DNA of 64,000 nucleotides from Polytrichum commune (lineage: Eukaryota > Streptophyta > Polytrichopsida > Polytrichales > Polytrichaceae). A model generated the notes under the pieces. The model made no database searches, was not told the DNA's origin, and saw only the letters and a program-made list of their open reading frames with translations. This document shows, in pieces, positions 5,092 to 61,820 of this stretch. The stretch lies in assembly GCA_950295325.1 (NCBI GenBank), contig OX485804.1, positions 22,258,001 to 22,322,000 on the forward strand. The letters run 5' to 3'. Both the position numbers and the translations under genes were made by a program. Within the stretch, counting starts at the first letter, position 1, and each line of letters starts with the position of its first letter.

Positions 5092-8000
5092 TCAAAGATC
5101 CTTGAAAATGAGTTGGTCTTCAGCTGTCAAGACAAACTCGTGTTTCATAGGGCCAAGCTTTGAGTAATCGTCAAAGCAGCTTGTGTCATCCTTACCCTGC
5201 ATCGCAGACATAAGAGAAGAAGAAAATCTCATCAATGTACAGATTACTTACTGGAAGTGCTTGGTTTGAGGCCAAAAACATTGATGCCACCTAGGTATTT
5301 GACAATGAGAAATTACCGAAACTTTTGGCCGTATGGGTGGAATGTCCTTTTTTCGAATGACTGAATCCCAGTCTGTGCTTTGGAACCATGCATGTGTCTT
5401 GAGGTCCTTCACACCTCCTTTCAAACACCCGAGCCTACCCCACCCCAATCGGTTGCACAGGTTTTAAAGTTTTAGACTGGAGATGTAGATGAAACTTAGG
5501 TGTTTTGTTGAGTGGCGTGTCATTAATTGTGGGTCTAAATGCCACTTTACACTATGGCCGAGGGCCGTGACCATTAAATTATGAGGGCCCTTGAATCTCA
5601 TCTGCGGGCTGCACTCTGCAAAATTGAAGTTGAATGTGGCGTGCTCACATGCCTTTTAGTGTTAAGACATAAGAGATGATCTCTCAACTCATTTCTATTA
5701 TATTAACATCCTATTCACGTGGGCCTTTCCACGATATAACTTACAGTAGACTAGAAGTTGTGGTATTCCAAAGGTGTTAGGGTCTTTAGATTATGTGTCA
5801 TACTCACCTCTTTGAAGTGGGCTTGACACAAAATCTGGTATATCATGAAACAAAATTCATGGTCTACTGGTGGAAACACTAATTTATGCTTCTCTACTCA
5901 TTTCATTTCATGCCATGTAGGTCTTCGTGTAGGTTTTTCATCCATTCAAAACTTCGTTGGACCTGTAGACCCTCAAATGCTAGTGTAAAGTGAAGCCTTG
6001 GGATACAGTAAGTGCCTTTTATAAAATAAATTGTGAGCCAAGGTGAGCTTCAGAGGAATTAGTGTATAGAAGCCCACCGTTTTGTCAGGTCAGCTACTAG
6101 AAGTCTCCGCAGAAGATCCTTGGCACTGCAACGTTCCCGAATAGTTTGTGTCAATAACCGACAACAACCATAGTGAATTATATTGCTCTTAAAAAACATT
6201 GAAAATTATTAAGATTCTACACAATTATAAGTTTTGTCAAGTTTTAATCTACCTTCGTGAGAAATGGCCAGGAAATTGTACTTTCCCACTCAAAATCTTT
6301 TGATACGTGCCAACGGCATCTGCCATGGTGATCCAACATCATTATTACTCTTAAGTTTATTTGGCGATATGGAAATCCATTAATTTATTATCCAATTTGT
6401 GTTGACGCCACATGATATGATAGCTGCGACTTTTATTATATTAGCCTTGCAGCAGTTAGAGAGTTATGATGATGTTGTAAGTTTAAATTACGTCCCAAAG
6501 GAGTCTCACCATCATCATAGAAAGGAGGATAACCAGCTAACATTTCATAGATTAATACTCCAAATGTCCACCTAGCATAACATCAATCAAACCACGTTGC
6601 ATGATTCATTTGTTCATTGGTTGTTGAATGTGATTCGCATGCATCTACTTATTAGTGTTCTTCCACACTTACCAAGTATTTTATATTACTTCAAACGAGT
6701 ATTAGAACGATTTGGCACATATGGTGCTTTTTCCAAACTCTAATATTATGAGCCCTTTGTGTTTTTGATGCAATGTACATTTCATCATGTCTATTAGCAC
6801 TTTTCTTATAAAGAAACAGAGTATATAGCATGACATCATGAAACCGTTAACCACAAAATGGGTTACCAACACTAAAATAAAATACTATTTTGTTGAGTTC
6901 TCGTAATGAAGTAAATCAAATTTACTATATGGTTGTTAGACCAAATAACCAAACCCATATTTGACTCATATCTACCTTTCAAATAGTGTTGTGCTTGAAT
7001 AATGCATGCTAGGTGTGGCCTACAATGAGCCACCCAACTATAGTGGGGGTTACCCAATCAATCATTCAAATGATGTGAGAACCTAGGAGATTTGGAATTT
7101 TTTGGAGGCAAGCACAAGATAACTTCCTTGACTCAATTACGGGAATTAAGAACATCCACCTTGAATGGAGGGTTGTTTTCCAATTGGCTATAGAGACTCT
7201 CATCGTGCATTGCACTAAAATATCTAATTAGTATGGATCATAATTTATCCAAAATTGTATGTGGGGTCAGAAGTGCACACAATAGGGTCACATAACTTAC
7301 GATATATTTTGAGAGCTTGGAATCCCTCCGGATGATCCCAAATTGGTGGATACAGGTTTGGCGAATCAACTCTAAGACTAGTTGAGGTTGATGCAAAATT
7401 TATGTATTTCTAATGACATTTACCAGTCAACAGGCTTGCCGTGACCCTTGTTCAGGATGATTTCAGGTGCAAGATAATCTGGTGTACCTGCATATGACCT
7501 CCATGCGAAATATTAGTAAATTAACCTCCATAGTGCCTGTGGTAAATTGACAATGCGAATATAGTAAATGAAAATAGGGGTAAACAAAACTTGGTTGAAA
7601 TTTTGTAACAACTTACCACACAAAGTGTAGGTTCTGCGATCAATTTGTTTAGCAAACCCAAAATCAGTAATCTTGATGTTTCCCTTCTCATCAAGCAGCA
7701 AGTTCTCAGGCTAGCACAAGAACGAGCACACATGCACACACACACACACACACACACACATTTTGTTTTTGTTTCATTGCTCAATTTCTGATGATCCGAT
7801 GAGAGGACAATTCTTATACTCGAAGCAATCTACTAAAGACTGGAAAATTGGAGAGGGCTTATTGTCACAATGTTTTACTTTTTCATTCTACCATACAAAC
7901 AGTGGCAATTATACGTTTGTGCATTATTTGAGCATCAATTGTTTTGGATATGAATTAGTCACCTTCAAGTCTCTATATATGATGTCCATGTTATGTAAAT

Positions 8001-10225
8001 ACTCAAATGCAAGTAATACTTGAGCTGCATAAAATCTCTGCCACCATCAGAGAATGCACACGTCAGGTTTTCCTATGTAAGATGAAATATTGCATCTGAA
8101 ACACAAACCTGAATCTCATATCTTTTATTATTAGGATTATCTTTTCTTCTGCAAACAGATGATTTTACTTTATTTAACCCACCATTGATGATTCAATCAG
8201 ACTCATGTATGGAGGACCCCAATAAATCAGGGTACCTGTAGAGCCATTTGCAGAGGAATTGATAAACCCAAATATTCCCAGTACGTGGCACACTGAACAC
8301 TTGGGTTAACCCTTGAAGGACCAAGGGGCTCAATGTACGACCTATGTACACAATTTCTACGAGCCCTACCCTGCCTTCAAACATATGTTTTGGTATTTAT
8401 GTGTTTGAAGCTTCACTTAGAATATTATCATTTGTGAGGGAAAAAAATAAAAATACACTCATTTGTGACATTGATGATCAAATGATGAAGTTCGTGTGTG
8501 CATCTAGGGGCACCTGGGTTGTGTACTTAAACACAAATCTTTAATAACATCAAGATACTCAACTGATGTAGAAAGTGCACTTGAAAATAGGTACGGTTGC
8601 TTTTGACACAATAAACTAAAATGCAAGTATGTAGCTCAAATAAACATTCACAGGCATGGAGAAGGCCTATCGGATGCTTAGGGGCTAATAATTTACAATG
8701 TTCTTTATTGTTATTTTTCCATGAAGTTGGTTGTGTAATGTAGGTGGCTTACAGTTGTTTGTTCATCAAAACGACCTGTGCTGCGAAGGTAGGTGAAAAA
8801 CTCCCCCCTACACCACAATGCACCCGATCATTATCAAAAACAAATAAAACAGTGGTACACTACCTTAGTAGCACTTGTTGGGTTTTGAAGATGAGTGACA
8901 CAAGGCAACTTCAATTCAGACGTACTGATTGATCAGAATTTAGAAATATTTTGTGATATTGTAGGTTAATTACGTACCCGCACACATACTCTATGATGAG
9001 ATGCACGCACTGATCATCCTGGCAGTATCCAAGCAAATTGACAACAAACGGGTGTGATATCCTCGCTAAGATAGACTTCTCTTGCTTCACGTGCAATACC
9101 TGTTGTGATGCTCTCCAAGGGATCAGCTTAAAGCATTCTTAAGCATGTGGAAGAAGATTCTCTTTCTATTCTAGCTTCAAGCTTGAAATTTCCAAGAATG
9201 AAGTTGTCAAGTGGTAAGCTCCCATTAGTCGACATGCCCTAAAGCCTTCAACCATCTACCTAGATTTTCAAGAGGAGAGGTGTGCCCCAACTGGAATCAT
9301 TCTTAGGTTATCTGGGTACCCTACCCACATACGCTCCTCGAGAAAATCCTAACTTAACTTATCATCCTCCAGAAATGATCATAAATTGCCCTGGATTTCG
9401 GAGGCTTTCGATTGACTGCCTATTATGGAGACATTTAGGTATTACACACACATCGATGCATACTACGAGTTGGGAAACCTAAGAAATAGATGTTAATTGA
9501 CAAGCCCTAAAGCCTTCTCCCACCTACCGAGATTCTTTGAAGAGGTGTGCCCAAATTGGAGTCATTCTTAGGTCATTCCAATACCCTAAGAATGATTCCA
9601 TTTGCACCCAGAAACTAAATGGGATAATCCAAAAAATGTGAAGGAAACTTAATATCCTTCAACCTATAATAAGTGCATTGGATTTCAGAGGCCCTTTTTT
9701 TTATTGACTGATTGGTACGAATAAATACAGGTCTCACGCACACAAACGCATGATTCGAGTTGGAAAGCTAAGAAAAAAATAGTTACCCACCACCACTGCC
9801 ACGTGGAAGGAAGAGGAATAACAGATAAAGCAGGACACAAAGTTGGGTGTCCTTTACCTGTTTGGTTTTTACGATGGAGGCCTTGGACAAAGATTTAGTG
9901 GCGCAAACTTGTCCTGTAGGAATGTAATGTGCAATATGCACGCGGCCAAAACTTCCCGTCCCCAATATGGGGCCCAACTTGAAATCCGAAAACTTGCAAC
10001 CTTCCAACCAGACCTACAAAAGCAATTAAGCCCTCCACGGAGTTAAGTAAATCGCAATCAATCACCGCTGCCGTGCCATGAGGACGATTTAACAATGATG
10101 CAAAAAATTGGTTTGTGCAGCATGCTGGAAATGTTTGAAGGAGTGGTAACCTTCTTTTGGGATGGCTCGGGGTCTCCGGAGCCGGAGGAGACGGATTTGG
10201 ACTTGGAGAAAAGCCTCCCAAACAT
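5092..10225 (-). CDS. cAMP-dependent protein kinase (PKA) catalytic-subunit-like AGC kinase
   Basis: Twelve exons on the minus strand give 346 residues: 10225-10151, 10013-9858, 9099-8978, 8807-8753, 8037-7963, 7710-7617, 7487-7424, 6571-6510, 6319-6253, 6125-6078, 5434-5317, 5196-5092. From the glycine loop to FDDY it keeps a constant offset of 7 from mammalian PKA-C numbering without gaps. Matches are GTGSFGRV (43-50), K65 (Lys72), E84 (Glu91), GGE with E120 (Glu127), YRDLKPEN (157-164), DFG (177-179), activation-loop T190 (Thr197) in [15 protein letters not shown]223 (Glu230), and the C-tail signature DTSCFDDY (316-323). The acidic residues that read Arg at P-3/P-2 in PKA substrates are therefore all present. 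The C-terminus is LIFKDL, an FxxL in place of FxxF. There is no Gly2 for myristoylation. Exon 1 ([11 protein letters not shown]...) is least certain because no homology supports it. By homology it phosphorylates Ser/Thr under a cAMP-binding regulatory subunit. Confidence 0.9.
5539..5998. mobile_element. TIR element of the CACTTTACACTA family, in a kinase intron
   Basis: Its ends are inverted repeats of about 26 bp: CCACTTTACACTATGGCCGA on the left, and on the right the reverse complement of CCCTCAAATGCTAGTGTAAA. The element sits entirely inside the kinase intron between exons 10 and 11. Ends of the same family recur at 22.4-23.9 kb. It has no coding capacity; the superfamily was not assigned because no clean target duplication was found. 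Confidence 0.5.
7735..7760. repeat. (CA)n microsatellite
   Basis: An uninterrupted CA dinucleotide run lies in the intron between kinase exons 5 and 6, just upstream (in gene sense) of the exon 6 acceptor. Confidence 0.95.
9230..9790. repeat. Two-unit tandem duplication inside kinase intron 2
   Basis: Two diverged units of about 275 bp begin with CCCTAAAGCCTTC (9237 and 9505). They share GAGGTGTGCCC, TCATTCTTAGGT, TTGGATTTC/CTGGATTTC, GATTGACTG/TATTGACTG and a CGAGTTGG ending. They account for much of the intron between exons 2 and 3. No coding signal was seen in either unit. Confidence 0.65.
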
Positions 10226-15094: not shown

Positions 15095-21728
<6,634 letters not shown>

Positions 21729-56356: not shown

Positions 56357-56473
56357 CAGGTCAACGAATTCAAGATCTGATGCAGCAGTGGATGCGGTTG
56401 CAGCAGCAGCAGCAGCAGGGGTCATGTCCGAGTGTGGGAAGATCGGCACCCGATGCAGAGCTCGATCCTTCAC
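56357..56473 (-). CDS. Candidate first exon of an unidentified gene (partial)
   Basis: From an ATG at 56473 the minus strand reads MKDRALHRVPIFPHSD, then MTP with six alanines, and ends SDLEFVDL at a perfect plant donor, CTG followed by GTAAGT (56356-56351). The alanines come from a (CAG)n run on the plus strand at about 56398-56417. I could not find the next exon on the minus strand, and no homologue is recognised. It may be a real first exon reading away from the adjacent tandem array or a chance frame. Confidence 0.25.
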
Positions 56474-58020
56474 CGTACTCGTAATTTCTCCACCCTCGAT
56501 TTCCAGTCACTCGCTGATTTGCAATCCCAGATCTAAGGTCGACAGCAGTCGCGTTGTCCAGCTACACAGCGATGATCCGGGAGAACCGGGGGTCAGTTAC
56601 AGATGCCCCGGTTGAGTTTGAGAAATCACCGGTTGAATTTCGTCAAGACGACTGCAGGTGAATTACCCATTGTTTTGGAGGGAATCTCATAGAAGAATAT
56701 ACCCAATTTAATGAAGGAGAACCTTTCGATCCTTTACCCTACTCGTAATTTCTCCACCCTCGATTTCCAGTCGCTCGGTGATTTGCAATCCTGGATCTAA
56801 GGTACACAGCAGTAGCATTGTCCAGCTACACAGCGATGATCGGGGAGAACCGGCAGTCAGTTACAGATGCCCCGGTTGAATTTCATTGAGACGACTGCAG
56901 GTGAATTACCCATTGTTTTGGAGGGAATCTTATATAAGAATATACCCAATTTAATGAAAGAAAACGTTTACCGTACTCATAATTTCTCCACCCTCGATTT
57001 CCAGTCACTCGCTGATTTGCAATCCTGGATCTAAGGTCGACAGCAGTCGCGTTGTCCAACTACACAGCGATGATCCGGGAGAACCGGGGGTCAGTTACAG
57101 ATGCCCCGGTTGAGTTTGAGAAATCACCGGTTGAAGTTCATCGAGACGACTGCAGGTGAATTACCCATTGTTTTGGAGGGAATCTTATATAAGAATATAC
57201 TCAATTTAATGAAGGAAAACCTTTCGATCCTTTACCCTACTTGTAATTTCTCCACCCTCGATTTCCAGTCACTCGCTGATTTGCAATCCCGGATCTAAGG
57301 TAGACAGCAGTTGCGTTGTCCAACTACACAGCGATGATCGGGGAGAACCGGCAGTCAGTTACAGATGCACCGGTTGAGTTTGAGAAATCACCGGTTGAAG
57401 TTCATCCCCGGGGTGGCAACTAGTACAAAATAATTTGTAACAGATTATCCATCCATATTATCCTTGTACATTCATACCAAAGAATGATTTTACGGAACTT
57501 AGAATGGAGTGATGTAGTGCACATTGAAACCGTCCATCATACGTAACAATATTTTGGTTTGAAGATGACTATGTATTATGATGCATCAATAATTTGAAAA
57601 TGATGTGGACCTTCTCTTGGACAGGGGGGCTCGTCCATAATTTGGTCTCCATCAGACCTAATTATAATTTAGATAATCTACAAAAATTTGAAGATAATCT
57701 AGATTATTTTGACTTTTAAGCCCTAACCCTAACTCTCTTCTCAACTTCTCGGTGGCTTCTCTCCCACTTCTCTTTTGAAACTCTTGAATCCAAATAATTT
57801 GAAACATAATCTAGATTATATGTACGATTATGTGTTCATAATCTAGATTATATGTACAATTATGTGTACATAATCTATGCCTTTGTGAAAATTTTGGATG
57901 AGCCCCCTGTAATTATTTGTTTGAGTTGCCACCCCGGGAGTTCATCGAGATTGTAGGTGAATTACCAATCATTTTGGAGGGAATCTTATAAAACATACCC
58001 CAATTTAATGAAGGAAAACC
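56463..58020. repeat. Tandem array, four units of about 245-260 bp
   Basis: Units start at about 56463, 56722, 56965 and 57221. Each has TAATTTCTCCACCCTCGATT, GCTGATTTGCAATCC, TACACAGCGATGAT, CAGTTACAGATGC, GACTGCAGGTGAATTACC and TTTTGGAGGGAATCT in this order. Units are very similar, so the array is young. The fourth is split by a 532-bp element at 57407-57938 and resumes after it to 58020. Confidence 0.9.
57407..57938. mobile_element. hAT-like MITE with CCCGGGG ends, 532 bp
   Basis: Ends CCCGGGGTGGCAACT and AGTTGCCACCCCGGG are perfect inverted repeats, extending imperfectly to about 30 bp. The 8-bp target AGTTCATC is duplicated perfectly (57399-57406 and 57939-57946). The insertion lies within the fourth unit of the tandem array, whose neighbour unit shows the empty site. 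The interior has several TAATCTAGATTAT palindromes and no coding frame. Confidence 0.9.
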
Positions 58021-61590: not shown

Positions 61591-61820
61591 GCAGTTGGTC
61601 TGAAGGCTTAGCCGGTTGCAGGTAGCTGGTCGAGGTTTAGCCGGTAGCAGTCAGCTGGTCGAAGGTTTAGCCGAGTAGTCAGCTGGTCGAGGCTTAGCCG
61701 GTAGCAGTCAGCTAGTCGAAGGCTTAGCCGGTTGCAGGCAGCTGGTCGAGGCTTAGCGGTAGCAGTCAGCTGGTCGAAGGTTTAGCCGAGCAGTCAGCTG
61801 GTCGAAGGCTTAGCCGGTAA
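61591..61820. repeat. Minisatellite, eight units of about 26-30 bp
   Basis: Core CAGCTGGTCGAAGGTTTAGC with variants, repeated eight times. Units alternate in recognisable types: GGTTGCAGGCAGC, GGTAGCAGTCAGC and a shorter GAGTAGTCAGC form. The order suggests amplification of a multi-unit block. It lies inside the transcribed part of the LTR-like sequence on the minus strand. Confidence 0.9.

Follow-up and report, generated by a model that had tools for sequence, protein, structure and literature searches.

A PKA Catalytic Subunit Gene in the Window

The DNA considered here, referred to as the window, is a stretch of 64,000 nucleotides from Polytrichum commune, C2:22258001-22322000 of a 407.8-Mb assembly of 64 contigs (C1 to C6 measure 77.9, 70.3, 59.2, 59.1, 52.9 and 44.7 Mb, and the genome matches listed in this work fall on C1-C7). 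On its minus strand, running from 10225 to 5092, lies a protein kinase gene whose product is very probably a PKA-C, the catalytic subunit of cAMP-dependent protein kinase, in a plant that has flagellated cells. Twelve exons were rebuilt from the raw sequence, all 11 introns are of the GT-AG type, and the spliced coding sequence of 1041 nt, with its ATG at 10225 and a stop codon ending at 5092, gives a protein of 346 amino acids with neither stops nor frameshifts across the 346 codons. A first-pass annotation of the window had described a complete 12-exon gene for 346 residues, and this description stands, with the minus strand now added to it.

Exon 1 (10151..10225, minus strand as are all that follow) carries the start codon and an N-terminal tail that begins MFGRLF, exon 2 (9858..10013) the glycine loop and the Lys equivalent to K72 of PKA, exon 3 (8978..9099) the alpha-C Glu and the hinge, exon 4 (8753..8807) the E127 equivalent and exon 5 (7963..8037) the YRDLK catalytic loop. 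PEN, DFG and the activation-loop Thr are found in exon 6 (7617..7710), the +1 loop in exon 7 (7424..7487), the E230 equivalent and GYPPF in exon 8 (6510..6571), the Y247 equivalent in exon 9 (6253..6319) and DLTKR with the R280 equivalent in exon 10 (6078..6125). The end of the C-lobe is encoded in exon 11 (5317..5434), and exon 12 (5092..5196) supplies the DTSCFDDY tail, the terminal FKDL and the stop codon.

Similarity and Functional Residues

The 346-residue protein matches the Pfam Pkinase model at 7.6e-70. A phmmer search of the PDB matched 2722 sequences, and among the best 60, on which our results rest, the top rows are cAMP-dependent protein kinase or its fusions (E = 2.1e-111, 375 bits), followed by 1fot (1.2e-100, 340 bits) and then by three rows of PKG1, from 2.2e-81 and 277 bits. 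1fot is the yeast enzyme, and 1ydr and 1atp are the mammalian PKA catalytic subunit alpha. In the best PKA alignment residues 35-325 of the query pair with chain residues 42-332, 163 of the 291 positions being identical, and because there are no gaps the offset of 7 is constant throughout, as the first-pass annotation had it.

That annotation had also credited the kinase with the catalytic residues, the activation-loop Thr, three substrate-reading Glu residues and an FDDY tail, all of which were recovered when 34 PKA-numbered positions were checked and 31 found to match PKA. The residues kept are G50/G52/G55, K72, E91, R165-D166-K168-N171, D184/G186, T197, E208, R280 and F327-D-D-Y330, together with E127, E170 and E230, which read basic substrates; a separate test of the kinase core likewise found K72, E91, D166, N171, D184 and APE. 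The three departures are the gatekeeper M120, replaced by Ile, W196, replaced by Tyr, and E203, replaced by Asp. Relative to mammalian PKA-C alpha, then, the gap-free core, the catalytic residues, T197, the three Glu residues and the FDDY tail are shared, whereas the plant protein has Tyr at the W196 equivalent, begins MFGRLF where PKA has a myristoylation start, and ends in an F-x-x-L that by our count comes three residues later than the F-x-x-F of PKA. A search with the Pkinase_C model (PF00433) gave 0 matches, and since none of its controls matched either this null is uninformative.

In blastp against reference sequences picked by hand, the window kinase matches mammalian PKA-C best once its own paralogue is set aside, with 57% identity over 284 residues and 0 gaps, as compared with 44% for PKG1, 40% for S6K (both the plant's own and the animal one) and 41% for an AGCVIII-like gene. 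In the reverse direction, among 10 rows from the plant's own genome, the best matches of mammalian PKA-C are the two plant PKA-C genes, which come before the plant's S6K at 45%.

A Second Catalytic Subunit

Searching the genome with the window protein listed 120 matches, of which the paralogue lies at C4:14906940-14910959, where exons 2-12 are found at the borders projected from the window gene, with 11 AG acceptors, 10 GT donors and a stop. Exon 1 was looked for by eye at this locus and not found. The 321 amino acids so obtained include 230 identical to the window kinase, and the tail reads FEDY in place of FDDY. A chance match is excluded by the E-value of the window kinase taken together with a paralogue whose splice borders fall at the projected places. 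Between the two copies there are 310 nucleotide differences in 321 codons, distributed over codon positions 1/2/3 as 87/39/184, a pattern that points to protein-level constraint; NG86 returned dN 0.206 and a dS of -1, the synonymous distance not being computable. Nine of the 12 kinase loci from the search (all save L005, L006 and L008) were read, giving seven CDPK-like, one CIPK-like and one MAP3K-like gene.

Regulatory Subunit and Cyclic Nucleotide Genes

There is no regulatory domain within the 346-residue kinase, and a separate gene for a regulatory (R) subunit lies elsewhere in the genome. The cNMP-binding model gave 10 matches genome-wide, two of them at C5:225011-227230, and around these a gene model of seven exons (C5:223963-228755) was picked by eye with AG and GT borders. 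The modelled R protein, 295 amino acids without the N-terminal part, has a glycine pseudosubstrate, RRTGV-SAE, followed by two cNMP domains (Pfam 7.4e-45, in two stretches), each with the PRAAT signature that is typical of cAMP sites. Its best matches among solved structures are PKA regulatory subunits, 5kbf (7.1e-68; the Plasmodium protein) and RI-beta 4din (1.9e-64), with both cNMP domains covered. These known subunits and the plant R share the two cNMP domains; the docking domain was not found in the plant protein, the N-terminus of which is outside the model. Of the 8 matches listed in a genome search with the R protein 7 are at the C5 locus and the remaining one is in a PKG-like gene, so that one R gene was found, in answer to the proposal in the first-pass annotation that such a subunit be sought.

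An adenylyl cyclase had been proposed for the same check, and a candidate lies at a CAPE-like locus. Two PDEase_I exons at C3:45262715-45264095 (1.4e-25 and 2e-27) are followed on the same strand, some 11 kb downstream, by a Guanylate_cyc exon (L023:7996-8526; 7.6e-6, 26.1 bits against a cut-off of 21.9), which came to light when the sequence past the PDE exons was read, the genome scan with the Guanylate_cyc model having listed only C3:1892984. All of these exons fall within about 13 kb, with hydrophobic stretches noted by eye between the PDE and cyclase exons, and they may form a single gene of the order described for Marchantia CAPE, that is an N-terminal PDE, two hydrophobic segments and a C-terminal cyclase (PMC5159850 and PMC8115329). 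The exon presumed to hold the first half of the cyclase did not receive support from Pfam.

Three further loci deserve mention. Apart from the CAPE-like locus there is a second class III cyclase exon at C3:1892984-1893235 (L021:4883-5533), which among solved structures comes closest to adenylate cyclases 5 and 9 and to a rhodopsin-cyclase fusion; Marchantia is reported to possess a second AC-like gene without PDE (PMC5159850). Within 17 kb, the PKG-like gene (C1:6510677-6527487, L018 and L019) combines a pair of cNMP-binding exons with one kinase exon of the PKA/PKG type. It shares with the window gene this type of kinase exon and, it would seem, regulation by cyclic nucleotides, but unlike the window gene it has the regulatory domains inside the kinase gene, and the two are 44% identical over 204 amino acids. 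The only genome match of the RIIa docking model, at C3:40418010-40418108 (8e-4, 28.3 bits, above the cut-off, in a search where three prokaryote controls matched too, under the cut-off), is away from the R gene and could belong to a flagellar protein.

A radial-spoke gene lies at C1:21.99 Mb, with four exon matches (the best at 2.6e-38), and there is one further, weak match on C5. The plant therefore has flagellar equipment, and it may make swimming sperm. The first-pass annotation had identified a PKA-C in a green lineage with swimming sperm and cAMP signalling, and this identification is supported by the PKA-R gene, the CAPE-like locus and the radial-spoke gene. With two PKA-C genes, one R gene and a PDE-plus-cyclase locus, the genome has the components of a cAMP-PKA module.

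Trees and Alternative Origins

The first-pass annotation had proposed a kinase tree as a check, and this check stayed weak: S6K placement is disfavored, and PKA and PKG were not separated. Trees were built from 8 to 11 rows, with NDR and PDK1 left out; own_AGCVIII_C5, own_MAP3K_C1 and own_CDPK_C4 were dropped from later builds, and own_PKGlike_C1 and own_AGCVIII_C1 in turn (the CDPK, CIPK, MAP3K and AGCVIII labels used throughout are our motif reading and not a database result). Grouping the two plant genes with S6K was rejected in three of four builds (p-AU, the approximately unbiased p value, of 0.028, 0.046 and 0.025) and was borderline in the fourth (0.057), so that this placement is disfavored. 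The AGCVIII clade was not rejected (p-AU 0.336, with a partial, long AGCVIII row). That one of the plant AGC kinases (S6K, NDR or AGCVIII) converged on PKA-like motifs would be in keeping with this last value, but the S6K result speaks against it, and so does the activation segment. AGCVIII kinases have DFD instead of DFG, and their activation segment contains an insert; the two AGCVIII-like genes examined here show DFD and an activation segment that is split, whereas the window gene has DFG and no insert. We regard such convergence as most improbable.

Clades of the two plant genes with PKG1 (p-AU 0.100-0.234) and with the PKG-like gene (0.244) were not rejected either, and one best tree placed the PKG-like gene beside the two plant genes and mammalian PKA-C with an uninformative support of 48/48. 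In the last build even the two plant PKA-C genes form an open fork. Taken with the existence of the PKG-like gene at C1:6.51-6.53 Mb, these values could be read as the mark of a kinase derived from PKG, the kinase part of the PKG-like gene having been copied without its regulatory part. However, the window kinase aligns to the PKG-like gene at 44% over 204 amino acids with gaps, as opposed to a gap-free 57% with mammalian PKA-C, the genome encodes an R subunit apart, which has a pseudosubstrate, and the PKG-like row is partial and long-branched, all of which renders a PKG origin very unlikely. The trees are weak, and the PKA-C assignment rests not on them but on similarity, residues and the R partner.

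The first-pass annotation had named scaffold evidence of contamination as a possible objection, and nothing was found for it. Contamination, or recent acquisition of the gene from an animal or fungus, would be hard to reconcile with its place on a 70.3-Mb contig, with neighbors in the window (helicase and Myb exons) that look like plant genes and with the presence, on another contig, of a diverged paralogue that shares its intron structure, and we assign this origin a negligible probability.

Several observations weigh against a PKA-C reading of the window gene. In none of four tests did the best tree unite the two plant genes with mammalian PKA-C in an exclusive clade, although that clade was never rejected (p-AU 0.165-0.437). 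W196, an R-subunit contact in PKA that is treated here as variable rather than defining, is Tyr in both plant copies, with L198, K213 and Y247 retained. The RIIa docking model had no match at the R gene, the N-terminus of R being outside the model, and Pfam gave no match for L023:6277-6531, the presumed first half of the cyclase. That the window gene is itself a pseudogene of a once functional PKA-C is highly improbable, given 346 codons without a stop or frameshift, intact splice sites and catalytic residues, and changes between the copies that are concentrated at third codon positions.

Relation to the Marchantia cAMP Module

The cAMP module of Marchantia polymorpha consists of CAPE, PKA-R and an antheridial cAMP-dependent protein kinase, the same set of parts as found here, in another genome, where one R and two C genes were found and where PDE, a putative membrane part and AC follow one another in the CAPE order. 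CAPE is antheridium-specific in Marchantia, and orthologues are described from Physcomitrella, Selaginella, Adiantum and charophytes (Kasahara et al. 2016, PMC5159850). A cAMP module is reported to control how Marchantia sperm swim (Yamamoto et al. 2024), and CAPE is reported also in Cryptomeria, a plant without motile sperm (PMC8115329, 2021). Because the module has been published for Marchantia sperm, a PKA-C gene in a plant such as this one is expected and not new in kind; the window gene is real, and it is expected in plants with motile sperm. Our literature search recognized no paper on the PKA-C of the source species, which does not exclude that one exists.

A PKA-C of the window working with the R and CAPE-like genes might operate as follows. 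At rest the RRTGV segment of R would sit in the active site of the kinase and block catalysis. CAPE would make (and degrade) cAMP, which upon occupying both R domains would free the kinase to phosphorylate targets with basic sites. By analogy with Marchantia, this would probably take place in the sperm cell and serve to control flagellar motility. That the window PKA-C is functional and has a role in sperm is an inference. More speculatively, and we consider it rather unlikely, the plant holoenzyme could be built differently, with two C subunits that have Tyr at 196 and a single R without a recognized RIIa domain (its N-terminus being outside the model); it may then be a heterodimer of R and C that is anchored at the flagellum by a means other than AKAPs, CAPE serving both to supply cAMP and to remove it.

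The genome described here provides a second look, at chromosome scale, at components of cAMP-PKA signaling that seem to have been retained where sperm swim and lost in flowering plants. The sequences of the R pseudosubstrate and of both C subunits would facilitate a direct test of whether R inhibits C and whether cAMP releases it.

Other Features of the Window

Four of the 10 frames scanned in the window matched Pfam, and scans for tRNA and Rfam families over the same stretch gave 0 tRNAs and 0 Rfam matches at the gathering score. Helicase_C is found in two frames on the minus strand, 15336-15911 and 17799-18416, and a glycine-rich frame at 20598-21089 on the same strand, which has no Pfam match, may by eye be the N-terminus of the same DEAD-box-type gene (locus 15336-21089). 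Two Myb DNA-binding exons between 46455 and 51238 on the plus strand apparently belong to one R2R3-MYB gene with a long intron. Further downstream there are two tandem arrays, one at 56472-57406 with a unit of 234 to 264 bases in about 3 to 4 copies and the other at 61592-61819 with a 28-base unit in nearly 8 copies.

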